Source: Paenibacillus swuensis (GTDB lineage Bacteria; Bacillota; Bacilli; Paenibacillales; DY6). Taken from it: 64,000 nucleotides of DNA. A program made the position numbers and the translations under genes. The stretch's first letter is position 1, and the number at the start of each line of letters is the position of its first letter. Below, one piece after another: positions 3,695-5,704 of the stretch. Below the pieces are notes generated by a model that did not search any database, was not told the DNA's origin, and saw only the letters and a list, made by a program, of their open reading frames with translations. The DNA lies in NCBI RefSeq assembly GCF_001644605.1, contig NZ_CP011388.1:2279001-2343000 (forward strand), in the 5' to 3' direction.

Positions 3695-3909
3695 AGCTAT
3701 TCTCTTAGTGGTATGAACATATATGCCGGCCCCAAGACTTTTATTTCTTCTTTTACAACAAAAACAGCCAAGATTTCGCCTGATTTGACACAGTTTTGGT
3801 AACGATTAACACATAAATAGGGACGATGACGGGTTGAATAACCTTACTATGTATGGCAGAGTAATACCGTAACTAGATTTATAGTTGTACATAAAAGGAG
3901 GAAGACTTC

Positions 3910-5118
3910 ATGAATTACCACTTTTTCGTAGGAAACGATAACGGAAACAGCGAGCACGATATGATTATTGACGGCCGGTTGGTTCAACAACCGAATGTAA
4001 ATTGTACGGTGGACGAGCTTCCGTGGAGCGAAGAACAGACACCCGAGAGTTTTATCCGAAACCTGCAGGAACAATTGGTCGTGACCGTCGATTCTCCGGC
4101 AGCCCGTCCGGGTATGTATTATGTCGGTACTTTTGCATTAGAAAGCGGAGAGATTCTGGATAACTTGCAGATCGGCATTGATCTGAAATGTGATATGGAT
4201 TTACCGGTTGTGAACACCCTGGCCCAGATCGCGGCCGTAGCGGTGCAGAAGGCATATGAGGAAGACAAGAAGGTGCCGGATCATATCGAAGTGGAAGTGG
4301 ACATGGCGACAGCGTTGCCTGTAACCCAACACACGGACGAAACTTCGGCGAAATTCGAGAAGCGGTTCACGTCCGGCACACATCATGTGACGGTACACCT
4401 CGGCATCCATCGGGTAGCGGTGAAGATTGTATTCCCGTTTGCCAAAGTGGTGCCGGAAGCGACTCCTGTGATCTTTGCATTACAGAAAGATACCGCAGGT
4501 CATTGGAGAGAAGGCGAAATCTTTAAGGAGTTCGCGGAACAGTACGGGTTGGACAAGAAGTTTAACGGTAACTACTTCAAGGACAAGCGCATTCTGCATG
4601 TGGATATCGGCGACGGCTCGACAGAGTATCCGATTACGGAAGGCAATAAATTCCTGCGTCAATTCGTGCACGGCAGCCACCACGGGGCAGGTTACGCGAT
4701 TGAAGAAGCGCTGGGTGATTTCAACCGTTTGATCCATCTGCCGGACAGCCCGCGCCAGTTCTTCAGCGATGTCATCAAGAATCCGAAGCACAAGTACAAC
4801 GCGCGCGCGTTAAAGACGTTGAAGAGACCGATGGAAAGCCAATCCCGGCAAATTGTGCAAAATGTGAAACGTCAGCTCACCAAAGCCCGCAACGAGATCG
4901 ATCTGATCTGCGTTTACGGCGGCGGCAGCATCCTCATGCGGTCCATGTTGTATCCGCAGCTGGAAGAGCTTTGTGTGGAGCGCGAGATCCAATTGCTCTA
5001 CATTCCGGCCGATTACGCGGTGCAATTGAATGCGTTGGGGCTGGACTCCTTCGTCCGCGGCAAGATCTATGAAGCATTGAAAAATAAAGCGACGCTGCCG
5101 CAGCCCGTTCAAGCGTAA
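3910..5118 (+). CDS. ParM/StbA-type actin-like ATPase
   Basis: The protein has 402 residues. Actin-fold nucleotide motifs are visible: phosphate-1 VGNDNGNSEHD at residues 7-17, phosphate-2 LHVDIGDGSTEYPIT near residue 230, and an adenosine motif CVYGGGSILMR near residue 335. This pattern matches plasmid-segregation actins (ParM, Alp family) rather than MreB or FtsA. The ribosome binding site AAAGGAGG is strong. A small ParR-like gene follows 41 bases later, so the pair has the order of a type II partition cassette. Family members form dynamic filaments that push or pull DNA bound by the adaptor. What DNA would be moved here is unknown. At about 400 residues it is longer than R1 ParM (about 320). 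Confidence 0.85.
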   Translation: MNYHFFVGNDNGNSEHDMIIDGRLVQQPNVNCTVDELPWSEEQTPESFIRNLQEQLVVTVDSPAARPGMYYVGTFALESGEILDNLQIGIDLKCDMDLPVVNTLAQIAAVAVQKAYEEDKKVPDHIEVEVDMATALPVTQHTDETSAKFEKRFTSGTHHVTVHLGIHRVAVKIVFPFAKVVPEATPVIFALQKDTAGHWREGEIFKEFAEQYGLDKKFNGNYFKDKRILHVDIGDGSTEYPITEGNKFLRQFVHGSHHGAGYAIEEALGDFNRLIHLPDSPRQFFSDVIKNPKHKYNARALKTLKRPMESQSRQIVQNVKRQLTKARNEIDLICVYGGGSILMRSMLYPQLEELCVEREIQLLYIPADYAVQLNALGLDSFVRGKIYEALKNKATLPQPVQA

Positions 5119-5159
5119 CCGAAAGCGGCTGAGCAGGCGGAAACCGGAAGGTGACACGC

Positions 5160-5543
5160 GTGAAGAAACAGAAGCAACCCGGCGATAACATTTCTTTGAA
5201 GACGAAGAAAACCGAAGATCCCGCGGTCATGAGTTGGATCAATGCGCAGACGAACCTGATGGATTCGCTGCGTTATCTGATCGAGATCGAAGTCGTGCAG
5301 AATGGTGTCCGAAATCTGCAGACGTGTATTCCGATGGAACGAAATATTCTCAGTATGCAAGCTGCCGATCAAGAGCTTCGATCCGCTCGTGAAGAGGTTG
5401 CGGCGGGACAAGCTTCGGCAGCATCCGGAGGTGTCGACGCAGACGCATCTTCTGAGGATTTAGCCGAAGTTGAACAGGCAGCAACGCCCGAATTGGCGCC
5501 TGAAGACGATATTGACGAAGATGATATCGACTCATGGATCTAG
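5160..5543 (+). CDS. ParR-like small adaptor candidate, partner of the actin-like ATPase
   Basis: About 127 residues from GTG 5160, six bases after AAGGTG; a GTG at 5151 overlaps that site and is less likely. The N-terminus is basic. The segment MSWINAQTNLMDSLRYLIEIEV, then QNGVRNLQTCIP (about residues 23-57), looks like the ribbon-helix-helix region of plasmid ParR/AlfB-type proteins, where a strand is followed by a helix holding SLRYLIE. The rest is a low-complexity Ala/Glu/Asp tail ending DDIDEDDIDSWI; in ParR proteins the C-terminal tail binds the filament end. It lies directly downstream of the ATPase, and a hairpin terminator closes the unit at 5704. The functional call rests on context and motif similarity. 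Confidence 0.6.
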   Translation: MKKQKQPGDNISLKTKKTEDPAVMSWINAQTNLMDSLRYLIEIEVVQNGVRNLQTCIPMERNILSMQAADQELRSAREEVAAGQASAASGGVDADASSEDLAEVEQAATPELAPEDDIDEDDIDSWI

Positions 5544-5569
5544 CCAAGTCCTTGCGTGGTAAGGGTTTT

Positions 5570-5650
5570 AAGTGATTGCATCACTTGGTAATACTTTGTA
5601 TTTCTTTGTCATATTAAAAGTAATGTTATAAAGAATGATGAAGTATTACC
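5570..5650. repeat. AT-rich palindrome cluster after the parMR-like pair
   Basis: AAGTGAT/ATCACTT forms a perfect 7-base-arm palindrome at 5570-5586. Directly after it, GGTAATACTT (5587-5596) is matched by its exact complement AAGTATTACC at 5641-5650, 44 bases away. GTAATAC also occurs upstream of the ATPase gene near 3863. The tract is noncoding and could be the DNA target (centromere or operator) of the small adaptor. This is inference. Confidence 0.4.
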
Positions 5651-5673
5651 TAGTAATTTAATGGTTTATTATG

Positions 5674-5704
5674 GGAAGTTTGCGAATAGCAGACTTCCTT
5701 TTTT
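5674..5704 (+). terminator. Rho-independent terminator of the parMR-like operon
   Basis: A 10-base-pair stem GGAAGTTTGC/GCAGACTTCC with one G-T pair, loop GAATA, followed by six T. Confidence 0.85.

Follow-up and report, generated by a model that had tools for sequence, protein, structure and literature searches.

The window analysed here is a stretch of 64,000 nucleotides, corresponding to bases 2279001–2343000 of the single-contig 5.01-Mb chromosome of Paenibacillus swuensis. Towards its left end the forward strand carries two genes. The first (positions 3910–5118) is a parM-like gene encoding an actin-like ATPase of 402 amino acids, and the second (5160–5543) is a parR-like gene encoding a protein of 127 amino acids. 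Three iterons of 10 bp (TAACCTTACT, ATGTATGGCA and GAGTAATACC; 3839–3868, forward strand, score 18.8) are located between the preceding gene and parM. Downstream of the second gene there is a further iteron array (5577–5660, assigned to neither strand) comprising four units (5577–5616, score 30.5) and another two (5641–5660), after which a hairpin resembling that of an intrinsic terminator (5673–5699) passes into a T run ending at 5704 of the forward strand. An earlier note on this DNA had described a ParM/ParR-like pair followed by a palindromic AT-rich tract and a terminator, in an apparently chromosomal region. The replicon is indeed a chromosome, and the terminator is present after the tract.

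The first gene has the nucleotide motifs of an actin-like ATPase, as the note had proposed. GNDNGNS, DIGDGSTE and GGGS are invariant in an alignment of 21 close orthologues of ParM, and D10, G12, N13, D232, G234 and G337–339, which belong to the actin-fold nucleotide motifs, are invariant across 18 diverse homologues. A profile built from these 18 sequences (A4) matches three structures in the PDB, 4xhp (4.8e-14), 5ec0 (7.2e-11) and 3js6 (1.4e-6). We take these to be BtParM of Bacillus thuringiensis, Alp7A and pSK41 ParM respectively. Homology of the ATPase with these proteins is detectable, but they come from plasmid systems and are remote in sequence. A diverse profile was needed for this comparison; a PDB search with the single sequence gave no match, and one with a profile of close orthologues gave chance matches only. 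The AlphaFold2 model, derived from a narrow alignment, has a mean pLDDT of 53.5, and a Foldseek search with this weak model returned pCBH ParM and Ta0583 among its matches, ranked below sugar and acid kinases. The single sequence matches the PHROG 'partition protein' family (3.1e-19). While its Pfam matches stay below the cut-off, membership of the ParM/StbA family is secure at the level of sequence, because of the PDB profile matches, the PHROG family and the plasmid relatives, nearly all of which are annotated as ParM or StbA among the matches listed.

The second gene lies no more than about 100 nt downstream of parM in all 40 orthologous loci and in the window. Its start is most likely the GTG at 5160 and not position 5151, because there is a plausible ribosome site (GGAAGGTG, 5145–5152) and many homologues have ATG at exactly that residue. 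The protein begins with a conserved section (NISLKTKK...NLMDSLRYLIE...GVRNLQ) and continues through a variable linker to an acidic tail ending D-I-x-S-W-I, which in the window is EDDIDEDDIDSWI. The N-terminal 60 residues are nearly fixed between orthologues, and total lengths range from 102 to 190 amino acids. Core and tail motifs are found in 41 of 41 loci, the tail ending in every case as D-[IV]-x-[AST]-W-x, which is suggestive of a tail that binds ParM. The note had also ascribed a ribbon–helix–helix (RHH)-like segment to this protein. The open reading frame and the acidic tail were borne out, but the RHH fold is unconfirmed; it is based on a strand–helix–turn–helix pattern in the sequence and on an alignment with pSK41 ParR that is co-linear and non-significant. 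The AlphaFold2 monomer model is poor, with one long helix (residues 21–48, pLDDT about 81–86 there) and no strand. Searches of Pfam, NCBIfam and PHROGs gave no credible match, as did profile and fold searches of the PDB, and no profile method matched the protein to known RHH proteins. Its position, conserved tail and adjacent iterons nevertheless support the small gene as a ParR-like adaptor, and thus the pair as ParM/ParR-like.

The palindromic AT-rich tract is not a chance feature. The window was scanned with a 10-bp weight matrix, for which scores of at least 14 were absent from five mononucleotide shuffles of the window. The iteron unit is 10 bp long with the consensus AAGTAATACY, and is common to the flanks of the 41 orthologous loci; neighbouring 10-mers that were not selected for the motif give the same consensus. 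The core GTAWTAC/GTAACAC was counted in the flanks of the 41 loci and in dinucleotide shuffles of them: within 250 nt downstream there are 77 occurrences against 2.8 ± 1.7 in the shuffles, and within 200 nt upstream 38 against 1.5 ± 1.1. The spacings between cores are multiples of 10 in 57 of 89 cases. The upstream set recurs 5′ of parM in most orthologues, and arrays at the cassette reach 15 tandem units (L065). In one genome (G070) the array is 5.2–5.4 kb away from the cassette. Judged by its sequence, the tract is a parC-like (centromere-like) array of 10-bp iterons, to which ParR is predicted to bind. The note had missed this centromere-like nature, and also the arrays located elsewhere that are described below.

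Most of the 396 genomes of the order are without the cassette; 48 have a single full-length copy at 73–100% identity, and two further chromosomal copies occur in other families of the class. A separate set of ParM sequences in the genomes of the order, at 24–56% identity, is probably largely of plasmid type. No relatives were found in viral contigs or phage records. Relatives in 104 plasmid records are mostly <46% identical; the best is 66% identical, and one of the 104 exceeds 60%. In a tree of ParM, 43 chromosomal sequences group without plasmid members (support only 0.58), and the sister of this group is formed by pBbsI, a plasmid, together with a small contig from another genome (G733). 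Across 20 genomes the mean pairwise identity of ParM is 80.0%, against 81.7% for DnaA. The ParM and DnaA distances correlate weakly (Mantel r 0.35, p 0.002), which is compatible with mainly vertical descent together with some transfer or uneven rates. In seven pairs dN/dS is 0.01–0.08, while dS is saturated in more distant pairs. The pair is chromosomal and old, and is under strong purifying selection. In Paenibacillus sp. P25 (CP085629.1, L125) the parM frame is broken after 143 amino acids and is otherwise full-length, by decay or by sequencing error.

The genes directly beside the cassette are not conserved, and few neighbours are common across genera, so that flanking-gene conservation was rejected as a marker of vertical inheritance and distance from the origin was used instead. 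The cassette is located to the left (upstream) of dnaA in all 27 genomes in which both are on one contig, and in all 27 it reads away from the origin, co-directionally with replication. The distance from dnaA is 44–305 kb in 26 of these, the exception being the genome of the window itself (738 kb). Because both genes had to be on one contig, draft genomes are biased towards short distances; complete chromosomes are free of this bias, and in 11 of 12 of them the cassette is within 305 kb of dnaA. Conservation at the same locus, which the note had suggested as a check, thus holds for the zone left of the origin and for the orientation but not for the adjacent genes.

The note had left it between the relic of an integrated plasmid and a resident chromosomal system. 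A plasmid partition cassette that is a remnant or was recently inserted, and has no chromosomal role, would account for the plasmid-type architecture, the plasmid sister lineage in the tree and the variable neighbouring genes. One genome (G336, contig C38; L093) retains only a broken parM (79% identity over 62 residues, with internal stops), a decayed copy that is in keeping with a remnant and represents a natural loss of the system. Against this stand the chromosomal group without plasmids, weakly supported as it is, the low dN/dS and the common zone and orientation in 27 of 27 genomes. Moreover no mobile-element gene is recognised among the typed proteins on either side of the cassette in the genome of the window, in agreement with the note. 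We regard a remnant as very improbable, and a resident system is favoured because many species have kept the pair and purifying selection on it is strong.

The closest plasmid relative is that of pBbsI from Brevibacillus brevis NEB573, in which the ParM/StbA protein is 66% identical, a small gene follows directly 3′ and the iterons are of the same type. It differs in being plasmid-borne and in where its arrays lie, about 1 kb 5′ of parM and 1.7 kb 3′ of the small gene (at about 4934 and 9410 in pBbsI, L097). As this plasmid carries iterons of the chromosomal type, plasmid and chromosome might interfere. The chromosomal copy could on this basis be an incompatibility or capture device, sharing iterons with plasmids like pBbsI and either expelling incoming plasmids, by competition for their partition machinery, or helping to partition them. 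Hijacking of a plasmid's par system by a chromosomal island has been described for SGI1 (PMC10954446). Yet plasmid relatives this close are rare, and such a device leaves unexplained both the conservation of ParM at the level of DnaA and the clustering of additional arrays around dnaA. We consider it unlikely.

These additional arrays were found with a profile that uses sequence only and was trained on the arrays next to the cassette in 20 genomes; each search scores the best 109–150 first-look candidates per genome. The calibrated profile was used because a simpler two-unit pattern with two mismatches performed no better than a reversed control in the genome of the window (46 against 77 per strand). 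In the whole-genome search the array profile (R1) matches the downstream array of the window with E = 8e-4. Among the best 109–150 candidates per genome, arrays are present in 44 of 45 cassette-bearing genomes compared with 4 of 35 genomes without the cassette, and in 24 of the 25 cassette-bearing genomes outside the training set. None was found among the same number of candidates in G336, which has only the parM remnant. One cassette-less genome (G010) has a tidy array of three to four units (GAGTATTACC repeats) at 3296409 (L145), about opposite the origin.

The arrays cluster at the origin. In 12 complete chromosomes, 22 of the 23 arrays lying >8 kb from the cassette are <360 kb from dnaA, where 2.9 would be expected (best 109–150 candidates per genome); the chromosomes represent about six genera in which sister species have inherited common sites, and the 360-kb bound was chosen with the results already in view, so that the formal p of 3e-19 should not be read at face value. 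Fifteen of the 23 are left of dnaA. At a score of 18 or more, an unfiltered scan of one genome (G127) gave eight arrays in the 380 kb around the origin compared with one in 400 kb far away, and column-permuted matrices gave 0–2 arrays in the origin region. At the −43 kb site, which G127 shares with its sister species G137 by orthology of flanking genes, the array persists in both and the differences within it are compatible with the motif, whereas the sequence to one side can hardly be aligned. Lineages that have no strong downstream array adjacent to the cassette tend to be the ones with dispersed arrays (G355, G127, G137, G036, G199, G072, G062 and others). G044 has dispersed arrays and keeps a short adjacent array of four units, and many lineages have the adjacent array only (including G050, G363, G111, G725 and G570).

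The first ten distal arrays inspected are intergenic, or overlap the end of an open reading frame by a few bases. Several of the eight arrays of G127 are located within open reading frames, some in apparent linker regions. Those at 2784070, 2821230 and 2849269 (L189, L191 and L194) are inside protein-coding frames and have counterparts in G137, and one such array of G127 falls, in a glycosyltransferase-like frame, in what looks like a linker preceding SVLIPARNEE. It might be argued that ParR is mainly a transcription regulator, that the dispersed arrays are the operators of its regulon and that ParM modulates ParR. The small conserved array 5′ of parM and the many intergenic arrays would fit such a role, but arrays of up to 15 tandem units exceed the needs of an operator, several of those in G127 lie within coding sequence, and a regulon would not be expected to cluster at the origin. 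A purely regulatory function therefore seems distinctly unlikely. Within a partition system, ParR probably also represses its own operon through the upstream arrays.

The genome of the window is the weakest case, with its cassette 738 kb from dnaA and one distal array. This is intergenic (1407375, L218; score 26.9), lies 137 kb to the right of dnaA and is the only distal candidate among the best 109–150.

The near-origin position of the cassette and the scattered sites in several species suggest that the system moves or anchors the chromosome itself. We think it rather probable, from sequence comparisons, that the cassette is a chromosome-resident system of the ParMRC kind (type II partition) whose target is the origin region of the chromosome that carries it. 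A broader proposal, for and against which we would give about equal chances, is that a plasmid-type ParMRC was domesticated as a second origin-directed machine for chromosome segregation or anchoring in Paenibacillales and neighbouring families, its centromere having multiplied into dispersed origin-proximal arrays, as an actin-based counterpart of ParB–parS and RacA–ram.

Chromosome-encoded ParMs (cParMR) have been described in Desulfitobacterium hafniense, Clostridium botulinum, Moorella and Bacillus tropicus by Ali et al. 2025 (PMC12270681); they form filaments in vitro and their role was left open. Like them, the present cassette is chromosomal, here on single-contig chromosomes, with ParM and an adjacent ParR kept across related species, and in the C. 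botulinum case there is also a palindromic cparC next to the operon. Those authors identified no conserved cparC among Clostridium strains, whereas the Paenibacillales type of array is common to many genera and is multiplied around oriC in some. Their main text, searched by terms, mentions neither Paenibacillus, Bacilli nor Cohnella, and yielded no reference to an origin-linked position or to dispersed sites, the words origin and oriC occurring only in unrelated senses. The parts are thus the same, and what is new is an order-wide chromosomal lineage, its origin-linked position and the dispersed arrays in some genera.

The nearest functional analogy is RacA, which anchors the origin in sporulation. 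In Bacillus subtilis the ram sites are dispersed, origin-proximal, centromere-like sites left of oriC that act on the origin region, and RacA is a tether having a helix–turn–helix DNA-binding motif and interacting with DivIVA (PMC9564211, PMC6593407). Here, by contrast, the presumed adaptor is ParR-like, the sites are tandem 10-bp iterons and the partner is actin-like. The system might by this analogy be a sporulation-specific origin anchor, an actin-type counterpart of RacA and ram with no role in vegetative segregation, which is a narrower form of the explanation favoured above. The tethering of the B. subtilis origin at the pole via sites left of oriC (PMC9564211) finds a parallel in the leftward location of the cassette and of 15 of the 23 distal arrays. 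However, the cassette is missing from most genomes of the order, and we give so restricted a role a slim chance. A literature search that combined RacA with the sporulation genes of Paenibacillus yielded no result.

The ParABS system (Soj/Spo0J and parS) similarly has origin-proximal chromosomal sites, but its proteins and its site are different, and it coexists with the cassette in the genome of the window. There parS is present at 1551738 and 1554081 (+6 and +9 kb of dnaA), with ParA- and ParB-like genes, recognised by sequence motifs, beside dnaA. ParMRC would thus be an additional system that is not needed as a replacement.

In the established ParMRC scheme, ParR bound to iterons binds the ends of ParM filaments, and ParM pushes the bound DNA. 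Returning to a resident system acting on the origin region, we infer iteron binding by ParR, filament formation by ParM and the chromosome as cargo. Dimers of ParR would bind the tandem 10-bp iterons beside the operon and, in several lineages, further arrays on both arms out to about 330 kb from oriC, the majority of them on the left one. The ParR tails, which are acidic and have a tryptophan next to the end, would thereby be clustered and might cap ParM filaments or nucleate them. Growth of ParM driven by ATP could push apart, position or polarly anchor the origin-proximal zone, which is the likely cargo given that the sites are chromosomal and close to oriC, and the system would work alongside ParA, ParB and parS.

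Whether an actin-type ParMRC ever segregates chromosomes has yet to be shown, and ParCMR systems have yet to be implicated in that process (PMC12270681). A conserved family, a centromere motif, a constant position left of the origin and, in some species, additional sites clustered around it make the question testable. The natural series of species, extending from a single adjacent array to many dispersed arrays, would allow a study of how a plasmid centromere becomes chromosomal.
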